Of a DNA stretch of 64,000 nt, positions 24,346 to 30,867 are shown in pieces. The notes under the pieces were generated by a model, which made no database searches, was not told the DNA's origin, and worked only from the letters and a program-made list of their open reading frames with translations. Source of the DNA: Spirobacillus cienkowskii. GTDB taxonomy: Bacteria; Bdellovibrionota_B; Oligoflexia; Silvanigrellales; Silvanigrellaceae. The translations under genes and the position numbers were made by a program. The stretch is taken from the NCBI RefSeq assembly GCF_037081835.1, contig NZ_CP146516.1, forward strand, positions 767,501 to 831,500. Direction: 5' to 3'. The first letter of the stretch is position 1; the number at the start of each line of letters is the position of its first letter.

Positions 24346-25710
24346 TTAGTTTTTTATTAAACCAAGATGTTTAAAAATTTTATAGTAAACTTTATTCCAA
24401 ATAAATTTATCAATAATGATTTCTCCAGAAATAATTCCTTTAACATCTAACATTAAAATAGTTTCTAATTTTTTTTCATCTCTGATATTTTCATTCCAAG
24501 AAAGTTGCAGTGGTTGAAAACCAACTTTTGTAAATAAAGATTTTAAACTTTCGGGAACGCTTGTTAAAATATGAGTATGGTTAGACTGAATTACAATTCT
24601 AACAATTTGTCTAATCATGTTAATAAATATATCACTTTCGCGAAAATCTTTTTCCCAAGAAAACTTTGAAATTTCTACAAAATTTTTACTCCAGATTGAT
24701 TCAGGAATAGTATCAATATAATTATTAAGTTCACATTTTTTCTTATTCTTATTATTAAAAATAATTCTAATACAAGCAACAGGTCGTTTACCTACTTTAC
24801 AAACAAGTTGTCTAGCAAAAGTATCAAATTCATCTTTGTATGAATTTAGTGAATTATTATTGTCAGAAGAATTTGGAGTTTTTTGAAAAAGACTATTTTG
24901 ACGTAGTAATAAAACTTTTTCGATTTCGTTTGCTTCTATTGCGTAAAAATAAGATAAACTATTTTCAATGATTTCTACAGGAAAATTATCATCTCTCAGT
25001 TCTTTTGGAGTGACTTCAACTCCACAAAATAAAATATATTCAACCATGATTTGAAGAAATCGAGTATTAACACTTTCAAATTGAACCTCAACATGGTATC
25101 TTGTGTTTTCATTTGATTTACTAGAAATCTCAATTTTTAAAATTTTAACATCAATTAAAAATTCTTCGCTTGTAGGAATTGTTATTTTAATTTGGGTTTT
25201 TAAATTTGGAAATAATGTCTTATTTCTTGCAGAAGTAATCAAGGTCATTCCATTCGCATGAAAATTTTTTATTTTAAATAATATTTTTTCTTGGAAAAAA
25301 AATGGATCTTCGCACCAGCAGTGTGAACCAAAAATATCAGGAATTTCGTATATCTTTTTTTTCTCTGGAGGTGTTTGAGACGAATTTTCGTTACCACTAA
25401 TAAATTCTACTCCGTAACGAAGATAATTGACTTCATCAATGACTTTTTCAAGAATATACACAACCCTTCCATAGACAAAACTTGTTTGATTATCCTTTGT
25501 GATATAAAAAATTTTTATACTATCTGCTTTTTTGGGATAAGTAGCAAGCTGTTGGTTAATAATTAAAATATTAACTCCCCAAGGAGATAGATCTGTAATT
25601 TCGCCATGAAAAGAACGTTTTTCTTCAATGTCTTTTACTTTTACTTTAATTCCTTCGCCTGGAAACACAACTCTACGCGTGTCTCGCCTATTTTCAGTAC
25701 CGGTGCTCAT
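24346..25710 (-). CDS. PilZ-domain protein with a C-terminal acyltransferase-like (FeeM/GNAT) domain
   Basis: 454 residues. Residues about 7-110 are a PilZ domain starting with the c-di-GMP motif (NRRDTRRVVFPGEG, later GEITDLSPWGVNI). A second PilZ-like unit lies at about 140-235 (NFHANGMTLITSARN). Residues about 245-430 look like the autoinducer-synthase/FeeM branch of the GNAT fold: an LRQxxL start, YKDEFDTFARQLVCKVGKRP, VACIRIIF, FVEISKFSWEKDFR, and a closing FTKVGFQPL. Such domains move acyl chains to amines. A c-di-GMP-controlled acyltransferase is the natural reading, but it is inference. The ribosome site is weak. Confidence 0.65.
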   Translation of the reverse strand: MSTGTENRRDTRRVVFPGEGIKVKVKDIEEKRSFHGEITDLSPWGVNILIINQQLATYPKKADSIKIFYITKDNQTSFVYGRVVYILEKVIDEVNYLRYGVEFISGNENSSQTPPEKKKIYEIPDIFGSHCWCEDPFFFQEKILFKIKNFHANGMTLITSARNKTLFPNLKTQIKITIPTSEEFLIDVKILKIEISSKSNENTRYHVEVQFESVNTRFLQIMVEYILFCGVEVTPKELRDDNFPVEIIENSLSYFYAIEANEIEKVLLLRQNSLFQKTPNSSDNNNSLNSYKDEFDTFARQLVCKVGKRPVACIRIIFNNKNKKKCELNNYIDTIPESIWSKNFVEISKFSWEKDFRESDIFINMIRQIVRIVIQSNHTHILTSVPESLKSLFTKVGFQPLQLSWNENIRDEKKLETILMLDVKGIISGEIIIDKFIWNKVYYKIFKHLGLIKN

Positions 25711-25834: not shown

Positions 25835-26722
25835 TTAAAAACAAAACGAAAAAAATGCGTAAGCAATTGGTATGCCCAAAATTAAAGAGTCTATACGATC
25901 TAAAAAACCGCCATGACCAGGAAGTAAGTTGCTGCTATCCTTATAGCCCCCTGCTCTTTTAAAAGCACTTTCAATGAGATCGCCAATTTGTCCCGCAATA
26001 CCCAAAAAAACTCCAATTAAAACAGCATACCATATTGGAAACGAAAGTTTAAATAGATAGGTTAAGGCGATTGCGGTCAGTGCGCTAAACAGAAGTCCGC
26101 CAATAGCGCCTTCACAACTTTTCTTGGGAGAGATTTTTGGGACTAATTTTCTTTTGCCAAAGCGCGAGCCAATAAAATATGCTCCTGTATCTCCCATTAA
26201 AATTGTTGCTAAACAAAAATAAATTTGAGCATTGCGATAAGGACTTTCTATTTGTAGCAAACTCAGTTCAATTAAACATGTAGCAGGGAGTGCTAGGTAG
26301 ATAAAGCCTGCAATTATATTTAAAAGTTTATTAGAAGCAGTATGAAGGTCGGCGGCGCGCCGGTAAATCAAAACAGCAAAAATAAAAAAACATAAGAAAG
26401 TCCAGGCAATGGGAAGGATTAAAACTTTTTCGAGACTATGCGAAAAAATTATTTTTGAAAAGTAATATGTTATAATTATAAAGGCATAAGAAAAACCTAC
26501 GGCAAAGTGCTTTAGCTTAAGTTTGGGACGAGGTTGTTCAAAAGCTGTAGATCCATCCATAATATTCCAGCGAAGTGCAGCAAACTCTGTACCAGAAAGT
26601 AAAATAGCAATGCTTACGATTGTTACAAAAAGTGGGGTAAACAATTTTTCTGGGGAAAAACTAAGAATGTAAATAATAATTGAAGTAAAAACGAACGCCG
26701 TCGCCAATCGAGTTTTAAGCAT
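25835..26722 (-). CDS. cdsA: Phosphatidate cytidylyltransferase CdsA
   Basis: About 295 residues from ATG 26722 (MLKTRLATAFVF, the usual start text of this family); the frame extends to 26845 but overlaps the promoter of the divergent Hsp70 gene. Eight hydrophobic segments; the signature is complete: PKKSCEGAIGG, then DRIDSL in LPGHGGFLDRIDSL, with the metal-binding GDLIESAFKR before it. It makes CDP-diacylglycerol from phosphatidic acid and CTP in the inner membrane, the step after PlsB/PlsC. No uppS or dxr neighbours, unlike in many proteobacteria. Confidence 0.93.
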   Translation of the reverse strand: MLKTRLATAFVFTSIIIYILSFSPEKLFTPLFVTIVSIAILLSGTEFAALRWNIMDGSTAFEQPRPKLKLKHFAVGFSYAFIIITYYFSKIIFSHSLEKVLILPIAWTFLCFFIFAVLIYRRAADLHTASNKLLNIIAGFIYLALPATCLIELSLLQIESPYRNAQIYFCLATILMGDTGAYFIGSRFGKRKLVPKISPKKSCEGAIGGLLFSALTAIALTYLFKLSFPIWYAVLIGVFLGIAGQIGDLIESAFKRAGGYKDSSNLLPGHGGFLDRIDSLILGIPIAYAFFSFCF

Positions 26723-26862
26723 ATATAAAAAACCAACTTTCAAAAATTTAAGATATTTTATCCGGTATGACCGGTTTGCATTCTGTAATATGCCATAGTA
26801 ATCAAAGTCTATCAAATAGACATTTGTGCGGTAGAGAATTCGCATATGTTGGAGTCTAAATT

Positions 26863-28950
26863 ATGAATGTTCTACAATTTAAAAAAAAATCAAAAGAAGC
26901 GGCTTTAAATTTAAAATATAGTTCTGGAGAAATTCGTTCTATTCCTAAAGAAGTTTCTGCTATTGGAATTGATCTTGGTACAACAAACTCTGTTGTTTCG
27001 GTATTTTCATATGGAGCAACACAGCCTGTTACTTTAGAATATGAAGGAGCTGCGTTAGTTCCATCTATGGTCTATTTTGATGCTAAAAACAATAAAGATG
27101 TTGTTGGAATACAAGCAAAAAGAAATTTAGATTTAGAACCTGCTGAAGTTATTAGAAGTACCAAAAGAAGCATGGGAAAAAGTAACAGCTTCTTTTACTC
27201 AAATAAAAAAACATATTCATCTGAAGAAATTGCTTCGCTTGTTTTAAATTATTTAGTTTTACATCCTATTTTACAACAAGAAAAAGAAAAATATGGAGGA
27301 ATTTGGGCGGTTATTACAGTGCCAGCGCATTTTGATGATGCAGCCCGTCTTGCAACAATTGCTGCAGCCGAAAAAGTGGGTATTCATGTACTACGGATTG
27401 TAAATGAACCAACTGCAGCTGCATTAGCGTATAGTATGATGCCAGAAGATAAAACAATTCAAAAAGAAACTCTTGCGGTTTTTGATCTGGGTGGTGGCAC
27501 TTTTGATGTGAGTATTGTAGACAGAGAAGGCTATGTTTTTAATGTATTAAGTAGTGATGGTGATGTGCATCTTGGAGGTGATGACGTTGATGATGCTGTG
27601 GCAAGTTTTTTATTAACAAAAGTGCATCCACAGCTTGTTGCGCGCAGAGCTTCTAAAGATTCTGAGTTATTTAGAAATCTGCTGGTGTGTGCTGAAAATG
27701 CTAAAAAAAGCTTGCAAGTAGATGGTGTTGTGCAAGTTGAGCATCATGATCTTGATGGAAAAGGATCAACATTAAGTTCTGAATTGACACGAGAACATTT
27801 CGAAGAACTTGTGGTCTCTATTTTAGAAAAAACTTTATATTTGACAGAAAGTGCATTGCACGCAGCAAAAAGAAGTCCAAAACACATTTCAAGAATTTTG
27901 TTGGTTGGAGGAAGTACACGTTTAAGTTTAGTGCGACAAATGCTTTCTGAGTATTTTAGTTGTATAGTTGATGCGCGACTTGAGCCTGATCTTGCGGTCA
28001 GTTGGGGCGCTTCATTACAAGCTGCAATTATTTTAGGAATTCAACCGGATACAATTCTTGTTGACGTATGCAGCCATACCTTAGGTATTGGTGTGGTCGA
28101 AAATTCAGAATCTATAAACGAAAATTTTAAAATCGTTGCTAAGAAATTTGGGATTCCTTATCCTGTTTCTGAATCAGAGTTGCACCGCAAACTTGGTATG
28201 CGCATTGAAGAATTTAATATAGAACTGCAAAAACTACTTTCTGTTGCTCCTATTTTGTTTAGAAATAGTGCCTTGCCTGCTAGAAGATCTGAGTTTTTTA
28301 ATACAATTTATAATAACCAACATGCTGTTCATGTGGTTGTTGTGCAAGGTGATGGAAGTACTGTGGGCGAAAATAGGCTAATTGGTGCGTTTTTATTTGA
28401 ATTAGAACAGCCTTGTCCTAAAGGAACTCGTTGTGAAATACAATTGACATATGATGTTAATGGAATGGTTCAGGTTTTTGCCAAACAGCTAGGTACAAAA
28501 AACGAAGCCAAAGCGCAATTTGATAGTAGAACTGGTAAAGTCACAGGTTGGACATCAATTTCTAAAGAAGACTTGAGTATGTTTGGAGACAATCAAGAAA
28601 ATCTACTAAAAGAATTAAATGAGATTGATACCAATGCACCGAGCAAAAAATTAAATCTTACTGAAAACGATAAAAATATTTTAGCTTTTCCTTTTGGTGG
28701 CAAAGCATCTCGTTCAGAAAAAAATATTGAATCTGATAACGAAAAATCTGCTGAAATTATTAATTCATTAGTTTTAAGAACAAAACGTATTTTAGCAAAG
28801 TTAGACTCTAATTCTTTAGAATATTTAAAAATTACTGAGACTTTAAAAAATTATTCTGATTTATTACTAGAATCTCAAAAAGGTTTAGAGAATGATTCTG
28901 AAATTGATCAGATTGAAGGTGATTTGCTTACTTTGTTAGAAGGAAAGTAG
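26863..28950 (+). CDS. Hsp70-family (DnaK-like) chaperone
   Basis: 695 residues. An unusual 33-residue N-terminal extension precedes the ATPase domain: IGIDLGTTNSVVSVFSYG (35-52), VPAHFDDAARLATIAAAEK, VNEPTAAALAY, FDLGGGTFDVSIVD and LVGGSTRLSLVRQML are all conserved. The substrate-binding part is much less like DnaK and has an inserted segment (about 425-490, IVAKKFGIPYPVSESELHRK). It is therefore a divergent, probably specialised Hsp70 and not the housekeeping DnaK. GGAG precedes the ATG. It heads a three-gene operon, four bases before the next gene. Confidence 0.9.
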   Translation: MNVLQFKKKSKEAALNLKYSSGEIRSIPKEVSAIGIDLGTTNSVVSVFSYGATQPVTLEYEGAALVPSMVYFDAKNNKDVVGIQAKRNLDLEPAEVIRSTKRSMGKSNSFFYSNKKTYSSEEIASLVLNYLVLHPILQQEKEKYGGIWAVITVPAHFDDAARLATIAAAEKVGIHVLRIVNEPTAAALAYSMMPEDKTIQKETLAVFDLGGGTFDVSIVDREGYVFNVLSSDGDVHLGGDDVDDAVASFLLTKVHPQLVARRASKDSELFRNLLVCAENAKKSLQVDGVVQVEHHDLDGKGSTLSSELTREHFEELVVSILEKTLYLTESALHAAKRSPKHISRILLVGGSTRLSLVRQMLSEYFSCIVDARLEPDLAVSWGASLQAAIILGIQPDTILVDVCSHTLGIGVVENSESINENFKIVAKKFGIPYPVSESELHRKLGMRIEEFNIELQKLLSVAPILFRNSALPARRSEFFNTIYNNQHAVHVVVVQGDGSTVGENRLIGAFLFELEQPCPKGTRCEIQLTYDVNGMVQVFAKQLGTKNEAKAQFDSRTGKVTGWTSISKEDLSMFGDNQENLLKELNEIDTNAPSKKLNLTENDKNILAFPFGGKASRSEKNIESDNEKSAEIINSLVLRTKRILAKLDSNSLEYLKITETLKNYSDLLLESQKGLENDSEIDQIEGDLLTLLEGK

Positions 28951-28954
28951 CGAA

Positions 28955-30367
28955 ATGAGTAATATAATAATTCAAAAGATTATTTCAGAGTTTGAACAAG
29001 ATTTTGATACGTTTGAAAACTATTTGCTGTTATCTACAGAAATTAACGAATTTAAAGATTATTTATTAAACTATCGAGGAATGCCTGTGAAGTTAAATGA
29101 GTCGTCTTTTCAACTTTCGCAGTTTGCAAAGCAATTTACAGAAAATATTATTAGTTACTTTGTTAATATTTTTTCTAAAAGTGGTTTGTTTTCTTGTCAG
29201 AATCATGAAATAACTAATATTTTGTGTGAAGTTGAAAAATCTGTTAATTTAATTTTGTATTATTGGTTTGGATTAAAAGATAGAAATTATCAATTTATGA
29301 CATTGATTCACTTTTATAATATTAATAATGTGAGTTCTGTATTTTTAACCAAAAATAATCAAGATTTTTCTGTAACATTAACTGAGTACGGTATTAAATT
29401 TGGATCAGCTGATAGTTTGCACGAACCAAAATGTATGCCAGTTTCAAAGGTTTGTGCTTTAACAAATTTTTACACTCCTAATGATGAAAGAGTTCTTTTT
29501 GCTAGAATTCGCACGGTACAACGAGAAATTTGTTTACTTATTGATGACTGGGAGCATTTAAACTCTGTATTAGCGGTTGATTATGGTACTAAGTACCATA
29601 ATTTGCAGCAAAATTATTCTAAAAAATCAGAAGAAGAGTTTGAAGCAGTATCACAAAAAATGAACATCAGACGCGATACTTTGGCATTATGGTGTATGGA
29701 ATCTTTTTGTGAATTTCAAGATTGGATAACATTTTTAAAATCTAAAAATAATTTTAATGAAGATATTTTATCAGAAATTGACGCAGCAGCAGCTCTTTTA
29801 TTGTCTGCAGTACAAAAAATATTTTTACCTGCATCAGTCAGTCGTCACAGGTATTGCAGCGAAATTTTACCTTTATTTAAAAAATTTGCTATGTCACGAA
29901 TTGCTATGAATTCAGATGATTTGTCCTCTCATTTGTTACTTCAGGTAATTCAAAGTAGTGAGGGAAAAAGTTTTTCTAATTTGTTGTTAAGTTTTATTGA
30001 AAAAAAACCTTTTGAATGGAGTTTGACCTTTGATCCTTCTTCTGCTCTAAAGGCATTTAGTTGGAGTTACTCAAGAGAACATCATATTTTATTGTGTTTA
30101 ATTTATACTATTTCTTATTTTAGAAAAATTGTCCCAAATTTTGTTAATAATCATCAATTGTCAGACATTGCAACAACAATTCAAATGCCAGAAACTTTTG
30201 CTATAGATCCTCAGCATAAGATTTTAAATTTTGAAAAGAGTGATCTTTCTCCTGAGTTATTTGAAAAATTATACTTAATTGCCAAAGGATATCTTGAAAA
30301 AAATTTCAAAGTAACAAAAAATAATGAAGAACTTTATATGTTTGTATTAAATGGTTTAAAACTTTAA
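28955..30367 (+). CDS. Large helical protein of unknown function, second gene of the Hsp70 operon
   Basis: 470 residues, no signal peptide and no clear membrane segment, predicted mostly helical from its heptad-like hydrophobic pattern. No domain recognised. It has AAGGAAAG before its ATG and lies four bases after the Hsp70 gene, so the two are translated together. A co-chaperone, substrate adaptor or dedicated client of the divergent Hsp70 is suggested by context only. Confidence 0.6.
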   Translation: MSNIIIQKIISEFEQDFDTFENYLLLSTEINEFKDYLLNYRGMPVKLNESSFQLSQFAKQFTENIISYFVNIFSKSGLFSCQNHEITNILCEVEKSVNLILYYWFGLKDRNYQFMTLIHFYNINNVSSVFLTKNNQDFSVTLTEYGIKFGSADSLHEPKCMPVSKVCALTNFYTPNDERVLFARIRTVQREICLLIDDWEHLNSVLAVDYGTKYHNLQQNYSKKSEEEFEAVSQKMNIRRDTLALWCMESFCEFQDWITFLKSKNNFNEDILSEIDAAAALLLSAVQKIFLPASVSRHRYCSEILPLFKKFAMSRIAMNSDDLSSHLLLQVIQSSEGKSFSNLLLSFIEKKPFEWSLTFDPSSALKAFSWSYSREHHILLCLIYTISYFRKIVPNFVNNHQLSDIATTIQMPETFAIDPQHKILNFEKSDLSPELFEKLYLIAKGYLEKNFKVTKNNEELYMFVLNGLKL

Positions 30368-30387
30368 AATTTATTTGTGAGTTATTT

Positions 30388-30867
30388 ATGATTTTTAATG
30401 AAGATTTTGAAGAAAATATGATTGTACCTCGAAGAAGGGCTGCCAGTGAAATTAAATTATTAAGGCTAGAGCTTATTCCAAAAGGAAAAACGCCATGCGA
30501 AGAAATTGGCAGTGAATGGTCTTCTGCGCAACCAGCAGAAAATCTTTCACCCTCAAAAGCGGCGTTGTGTCTTGGAATTGAGGTGTGGGCGCCCCAATCT
30601 GTTGTCAAAAAGCGGTATAAAACGTTGCAGCTTCGCTATCCTCCGGATCAATTTGTGGAAAAACACATAGAGTGGCGTCCCTCTGCGGAGTTACTTGGAA
30701 ATCCCAGAAGCCGCTTGAATTGGTTTTGGCAAAGCGGTTTTGTGCCGTTGCCAGAGAGCAAGTTAGAATTTAAAGAGGGTTCATTATGGGACAAAAACAA
30801 TGCAGAACCAGAAATTGATAGCAGGCTTGCATTAAAGCGTTTAAAAAATATGTTTAGGATTAATTAA
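30388..30867 (+). CDS. Degenerate J-domain-like protein, third gene of the Hsp70 operon
   Basis: 159 residues. Residues about 48-115 follow the layout of a DnaJ J-domain: SPSKAALCLGIEVWAPQSVV (helix I), KKRYKTLQLRYPPDQF (helix II and loop) and SAELLGNPRSRLNWFW (helix III, compare LLSDPxxRxxYDW). The catalytic His-Pro-Asp tripeptide reads Pro-Pro-Asp. The rest is charged. J-domains stimulate Hsp70 ATPase through HPD, so this version may dock without stimulating or may act with altered chemistry. Its position directly behind an Hsp70 supports the reading. Weak ribosome site. Confidence 0.55.
   Translation: MIFNEDFEENMIVPRRRAASEIKLLRLELIPKGKTPCEEIGSEWSSAQPAENLSPSKAALCLGIEVWAPQSVVKKRYKTLQLRYPPDQFVEKHIEWRPSAELLGNPRSRLNWFWQSGFVPLPESKLEFKEGSLWDKNNAEPEIDSRLALKRLKNMFRIN

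Follow-up and report, generated by a model that had tools for sequence, protein, structure and literature searches.

An Hsp70 with a J-protein of its own is a known kind of chaperone system, and the operon described here, from a window of 64,000 nucleotides (the whole stretch that was analysed, positions 767501-831500) of the genome of Spirobacillus cienkowskii, is a conserved variation of it. It encodes an Hsp70, a helical protein and a J-like protein with Pro-Pro-Asp at the place of the His-Pro-Asp (HPD) tripeptide of J-domains. S. cienkowskii is a red Daphnia pathogen of the order Silvanigrellales with a complete genome of 2.81 Mb (PMC12321486). It belongs to the Silvanigrellaceae, a family of water bacteria, and provides the closest named match of the J-like protein (97%). 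The text of the genome paper contains neither Hsp70, chaperone nor DnaK. Searches of the open-access literature brought up no work that deals with this operon or with J-proteins lacking the His in HscC operons, apart from a remark on HPE in a 2026 review (PMC13254874).

For the pair DnaK-DnaJ it is reported that His33 bonds the carbonyl of L391 in the linker, whose neighbour Pro34 packs against P419, while both R167 and Q378 are bonded by Asp35 (PMC8215388), Asp35 being described as the residue that disturbs R167 (PMC7289447). D211, E217 and D477 of DnaK contact J residues other than HPD. According to a simulation, DnaJ H33A binds like the wild type but makes the stimulating state less favourable, and binding is impaired in D35A (PMC13012618). 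Replacements of the His and the Asp are reported to have abolished stimulation in every tested system (PMC8215388).

Among the specialised systems, HscC of E. coli with DjlB and DjlC resembles the system of the window in several aspects. Both Hsp70s share the deletion of residues 76-101 (DnaK numbering) and the loss of the GrpE signature loop, and both have their own J-proteins with a changed HPD (HPE in DjlB and DjlC). However, DjlB and DjlC are long, have an N-terminal J-domain and keep the His, whereas the J-like protein of the window has Pro and a conserved N-arm of 43 residues, and its Hsp70 possesses an insertion of 45 residues. In the tree, HscC forms a separate branch. SglK of Myxococcus xanthus (MXAN_6671/6672) is a second specialised Hsp70, with an upstream GrpE as in a distant homologue of the locus (G052, see below). 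SglK is of the DnaK type and reportedly can replace E. coli DnaK (PMC8265645, PMC11019930), in contrast to the Hsp70 of the window, which is not DnaK-type. The J-like protein itself resembles the type IV (pseudo) J-domain proteins (JDPs) like Pam16 and DNAJB13, which are defined by a recognisable J-domain and a non-conservatively replaced HPD (PMC13254874); by this definition it can be counted as a type IV JDP. It differs from them in being bacterial and in sharing an operon with its own Hsp70, and the motifs of the window's family and of the distant homologue keep the acid (PPD, PPE, PSD, PLE), whereas those of type IV JDPs are DKE, DKS and HPL. Whether departures from HPD reflect accident or selection is posed as enigmatic in section 7 of the same review.

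The locus comprises the following features:

26863-28950, + strand: hsp70; 695 residues, specialised Hsp70, placed by the tree outside DnaK, HscA and HscC
28099-28233, + strand: insertion of approximately 45 residues in loop L1,2 of the substrate domain of the Hsp70 (residues about 413-457), from the alignment, in 11/11 family Hsp70s
28955-30367, + strand: partner gene; helical protein of 470 residues, no Pfam, PHROG or PADLOC match and no confident fold match
30388-30867, + strand: J-like gene; 159 residues with a conserved N-arm (14-56), a probable degenerate J-domain (about 57-117) and a variable tail
30640-30648, + strand: codons for P85-P86-D87, the counterpart of HPD, inside RYPPDQF (translation of the open reading frame, alignment)

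Co-occurrence and conservation of the three genes

The preliminary description of this DNA had proposed a dedicated Hsp70 system whose three genes should occur together in related genomes. This proposal is supported, since all three genes stand together in each of the 11 genomes of the family with a contig that spans the locus. In the window, hsp70 is followed after four bases by the partner gene, as had been described, and this after 20 bases by the J-like gene. The order hsp70-partner-J-like is constant in the nine complete loci of relatives, where the gap between the first two genes ranges from -8 to +27 bases and the start of the J-like gene overlaps the partner gene.

An ortholog of the Hsp70 (E=0) was detected in 13 of the 14 genomes of the family among 56 genomes of the class, the only exception being G010, whose assembly is 83% complete. 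The partner was found in the same 13 genomes, in two of them (G011 and G012) as a fragment because the contig ends inside the gene. The J-like protein (E<1e-70) is present in 11 of 58 genomes searched, every one within the family, and the two family genomes with an Hsp70 but no J-like match are exactly those two with the contig end inside the partner. A scan of a species-genome collection with two J-like peptides, insensitive to distant forms, yielded six loci, all of them three-gene operons of the same kind. PADLOC and PHROGs gave no match, and a defence-system or phage origin was therefore rejected. The genome of S. cienkowskii, which is a single contig, additionally encodes its own DnaK elsewhere, four other J-proteins that all carry HPD (one of them under the Pfam cut-off) and a single GrpE that passes its cut-off.

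Of the three operon proteins, the J-like protein shows the highest conservation, with 54-88% identity among relatives compared to 54-76% for the Hsp70 and 29-57% for the partner. Between species, the Hsp70 has a ratio of nonsynonymous to synonymous substitution rates (dN/dS) of 0.13-0.14, and the partner one of 0.28-0.37. The J-like protein shows saturation of dS, but its dN of 0.09-0.18 points to strong constraint by purifying selection. A contrary sign is that the two strains of the species differ in its tail (dN/dS 0.78, from very few changes). In ten family proteins, 52 of the 159 residues are invariant, of which 21 lie within the 43 residues of the N-arm (14-56), 14 within residues 90-117 and only two in the tail.

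The J-like protein and its altered motif

A J-domain layout with Pro-Pro-Asp for His-Pro-Asp was correctly recognised in the preliminary description. RYPPDQF stands at the place of KYHPDKN, and the family motif can be written as YP[PS][DE]QF, with P85, Q88 and F89 invariant, an acid (D or E) at the third position in 10/10 proteins and PPD, PPE or PSD as the tripeptide in all of them. The HPD by which the J-domain family is recognised is thus absent from all ten proteins as well as from the distant homologue (PLE). Chance or a sequencing error as the origin of PPD is ruled out, since Pro occupies the site in 10/10 proteins from separate genomes.

The descent of this protein from a J-domain becomes apparent in profile comparisons. 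The Pfam DnaJ score of the single sequence is weak (13.4 bits, under the cut-off), but a profile of the ten family sequences, without the distant homologue, has a J-domain as its best match in the PDB (E=0.0036). J-domains account for 20 of the 22 PDB sequences that it finds at E<=1, among them 2cug, which we take to be one. Addition of the distant homologue improves the best J-domain match to E=5.8e-5. Conversely, a profile of ten canonical J-domains scores six of the family proteins with 6.7-9.4 bits. In the alignment, VVKKRYKTLQLRY corresponds to helix II, the Pro to His33 and [PS][DE] to Pro34-Asp35. Taking together profiles, helix pattern and gene context, rather than a structure match, the third protein can be regarded as a real but degenerate J-domain protein.

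The distant homologue belongs to another family of the same class (G052). Its locus encodes, on one strand, a GrpE-like protein (Pfam GrpE 20.5 bits, under the cut-off), an Hsp70 of 587 residues, a helical-looking protein of 676 residues and a J-like protein of 167 residues. The latter carries RRYPLEQFPEKF, has the motif RYPLEQF with Pro at the place of the His, is recognised by the profile of the family (hhalign probability 87, E 4e-6) and reaches 18.6 bits with Pfam DnaJ, which is above the score of the window's protein. Between the 676-residue protein and the partner of the window, no kinship was recognisable by hhalign (probability 2.3).

Pro at the place of the His also occurs in plasmid cassettes of the cyanobacteria Nostoc sp. 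UHCC 0302 and Acaryochloris sp. 'Moss Beach', with the order J-GrpE-Hsp70 followed by a tetratricopeptide repeat (TPR) protein. Like in the window, a small J-protein (REFPAH) stands beside an Hsp70, and the Hsp70 of the Nostoc cassette is the best BLAST match of the window's Hsp70 in the compared set (35%). Unlike in the window, GrpE is present, the acid is lost (PAH) and R167 is replaced by Gln; no helical partner of the window's kind was seen in the cassettes:

L127:2824-5752 and L141:3057-5738: J-GrpE-Hsp70 cassettes on cyanobacterial plasmids; PAH for HPD, Gln for R167

The Hsp70, its helical partner and the neighbouring genes

As stated previously, the Hsp70 is divergent. It reaches 326 bits with Pfam HSP70, but falls far below the NCBIfam cut-offs for DnaK (335.7 vs 822.55) and HscA (299.9 vs 708.55). 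Nevertheless, it retains K70, R167, N170, E171, T173, T199, Q378, L391, D393 and P419. All tested residues that meet the HPD in DnaK (R167, Q378, L391 and P419) are thereby kept, as are the residues for ATPase activity and coupling (K70, E171, T173 and T199).

The deletion of residues 76-101 is present in all family Hsp70s and is common to HscC and the Hsp70s of Nostoc and G052. The GrpE signature loop of the family Hsp70s is shortened and lacks GPK. Since the deletion is reported also for many DnaK-type proteins outside the proteobacteria (PMC8215388), it is weak evidence of kinship. According to the same source, HscC proteins have 550-580 residues and an L1,2 insertion of 4-8 residues, and the 695 residues and the insertion of the window's Hsp70 exceed these figures. 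In the trees, the HscC proteins form a separate branch (support 100/100, and 100 in both leave-out runs) that excludes the family Hsp70s in both trees holding the family. Although the shared deletions are real, membership in HscC is thus ruled out by tree, length and insertion.

The full tree contains the group (Nostoc,(G052,family)) with support values of 96/86 and 99/92, with a warning of long branches by the program. When G052 is left out, the family joins Nostoc, HscC and DnaK/HscA at a point without resolution, and without the family the placement of G052 and Nostoc is likewise without resolution; for reasons of speed, these leave-out trees were computed with nine further rows removed (five odd Hsp70s, two rows of the family and two DnaKs). 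Because the family is linked to the cyanobacterial cassettes only when G052 is included, we do not claim such a kinship but only that the family Hsp70s belong neither to DnaK/HscA nor to HscC. Very long Hsp70-like proteins (744-840 residues) with long tree branches were also seen in other families of the class (L134, L135 and L137).

The prediction of a helical partner of 470 residues agrees with the open reading frames and with a confident structural model (predicted local distance difference test, pLDDT, 89.8; predicted template modelling score 0.89). It is nearly all helix, apart from a three-stranded sheet (short beta hairpin) at residues 126-151, and contains two helices of approximately 41 residues (178-219 and 223-263). 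Foldseek gave 446 matches with E<=10 in the PDB and 186 matches in BFVD, none of them at E<=0.001. In the VIA comparison, the best match was to the long helices of Stat5a (Z 12.8 over 143 residues), which is inside the range for unrelated helical models. These searches do not establish the fold as a new one. The partner may be a client adaptor or an exchange factor. The partner gene of one relative (G008; L034:3797-5461, - strand) encodes a long low-complexity Ala-Glu-Val repeat near the N-terminus.

Upstream of the operon, cheR, pilZ and cdsA are common to the genus, and the downstream gt2-oxidoreductase cluster of the window had no match in the nine loci of relatives. The listed start of cdsA (25835-26845, - strand) is probably too early. 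The alignments of relatives begin at residue 36-42 in all six loci with cdsA, so that the start is expected near 26722, which would leave a divergent control region of about 140 bases between cdsA and hsp70. Promoter and terminator predictions were about as frequent as in shuffled sequences (23 vs 18.9 and 1 vs 2.0, respectively) and were left unused. The gene at 24346-25710 (- strand), whose place beside cdsA is kept across the genus, encodes a PilZ domain (33 bits) fused to a region with weak similarity to a FeeM-like N-acyl amino acid synthase (22.6 bits, under the cut-off), and the product is perhaps an acyltransferase controlled by cyclic di-GMP.

Docking, triggering and rival explanations

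In the J-like family the acid that contacts R167 is kept and the His that contacts the linker is gone. From the chemistry of DnaK and by analogy only, docking without firing would therefore be predicted. The reading we prefer, as a tentative one that might nearly as well prove right as wrong, is that of a three-part dedicated Hsp70 machine, with the J-like protein as a private targeting co-chaperone whose triggering is weakened or moved. Descending from a J-domain protein, it would dock to the neighbouring Hsp70 at the usual site formed by nucleotide-binding domain, linker and substrate-binding domain beta, using helix II together with the acidic residue of YP[PS][DE]QF (to R167). It would bring the Hsp70 to one client or complex, which might be recognised by the conserved N-arm, the helical partner, or both. 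With Pro for the linker-contacting His, docking and triggering would be partly uncoupled, and ATP hydrolysis might be slow or be completed by the client or the partner instead of the His.

Several observations weigh against this reading. The Hsp70 lacks D211 and E217, the acidic J-contact positions of DnaK, and also D477. For the J-like protein, AlphaFold2 yields a model of low quality (pLDDT 47.6; helices at 55-62, 70-83, 99-104 and 106-116), so that the docking pose is a putative one. The partner is tied to the Hsp70 chemistry by nothing but gene order. Furthermore, the His is changed in 10 of 13 J-proteins sampled beside HscC-type Hsp70s, and DjlB and DjlC reportedly act together with HscC, which makes it possible for a J-protein to be fully active without the standard HPD.

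This sample covers 13 J-proteins from 11 loci, namely E. coli, seven loci picked for taxon spread among 60 of 90 records before their J-proteins were seen, Rahnella, Paracoccus and G033 (L131, L142-L149, L109, L129 and L130). HPD occurs in none of them; instead we found RPD (five, the commonest form), HPE (three) and RPE, DPQ, DQG, DIE and DQV (one each). The loss of HPD in the window's J-like protein thus appears to be part of a wider trend beside HscC-type Hsp70s. HscB, the partner of HscA, keeps HPD. A general rule that specialised Hsp70s lose HPD is ruled out by a counter-example from the same class (G026; L110:1-1887 and L110:4696-6699), in which an odd Hsp70 of 667 residues with a hydrophobic N-terminus has an upstream protein of 628 residues on the same strand that ends in an HPD J-domain. 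The preliminary description had called the His essential for stimulating Hsp70. This holds for DnaK-type pairs, but it is not a safe rule for the present branch, given how common HPD loss is beside HscC-type Hsp70s. For the same reason, that HscC-type pairs carry other tripeptides, the prediction of docking without firing may fail.

The J-like protein could also be fully active by means of an altered trigger. In this Hsp70 branch, YP[PS][DE]QF would then take on the task of HPD, for instance by contact of the invariant Gln or Phe with the linker, and the ATPase would be stimulated normally. We consider this a serious possibility, albeit a less probable one. The J-like gene is the sole one of its kind in the operon, and the motif acid and its Arg partner on the Hsp70 are both kept. 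The absence of HPD from the sample above fits as well, and HPE of DjlB and DjlC is named as tolerated with HscC (section 7 of PMC13254874), whose section 8 cites a designed J analogue that stimulates Hsc70 without HPD. On the other hand, a proline is unable to donate the hydrogen bond, and the abolished stimulation after His or Asp replacement in all tested systems (PMC8215388) argues against such an activity. An inhibitory pseudo-J like Pam16, which would bind a canonical J-protein or occupy the site on the Hsp70 and restrain the cycle, is unlikely in our opinion. Pam16 has DKE and is described as an inhibitor of Pam18 (section 7 of PMC13254874), the four HPD J-proteins of the genome are possible active partners, and a J-protein that binds without firing, as simulated for H33A (PMC13012618), would compete. 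However, at the loci read there is no HPD J-protein in or beside the operon, and whereas the HPD of Pam16 is fully lost in human (DKS), with the acid found only in yeast (DKE), the acid is kept in 10/10 family proteins.

Finally, the likeness to a J-domain might be chance or a remnant, with the N-arm carrying another function. The single-protein Pfam score lies under the cut-off, the family proteins score low with the canonical profile and were surpassed by 1 of 450 shuffles (12.3 bits), AlphaFold2 gave no confident fold, and the N-arm is as conserved as the J-like part. This explanation nonetheless seems quite improbable, as the PDB matches of the family profile are almost exclusively J-domains, the distant homologue has the better Pfam DnaJ score and the gene adjoins an Hsp70 in two families.

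The concurrent presence of PAH and Gln167 in the cyanobacterial cassettes implies that the acid and its Arg partner changed together there, although a change seen in one lineage is suggestive only. It would be a natural counterpart (R167Gln/D35His) of the laboratory suppressor pairs R167/D35N. One could speculate further, as a rather unlikely generalisation, that a bacterial Hsp70 branch outside DnaK, HscA and HscC uses private J-proteins that have replaced the His of HPD by Pro for good, keeping the docking of the acid to R167 and dropping the linker trigger or moving it to a partner, with the joint change in the cyanobacterial cassettes as part of the same picture. Judging from the wider pattern beside HscC-type Hsp70s, the HPD rule may be a rule for DnaK-type pairs and not a universal one. 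In the family of S. cienkowskii, a His-less J-like protein is kept throughout and exceeds its two operon neighbours in conservation. This small Hsp70 operon makes it testable whether an Hsp70 can use a His-less docking J-protein, and it suggests that bacteria can rewire the universal Hsp70 switch.

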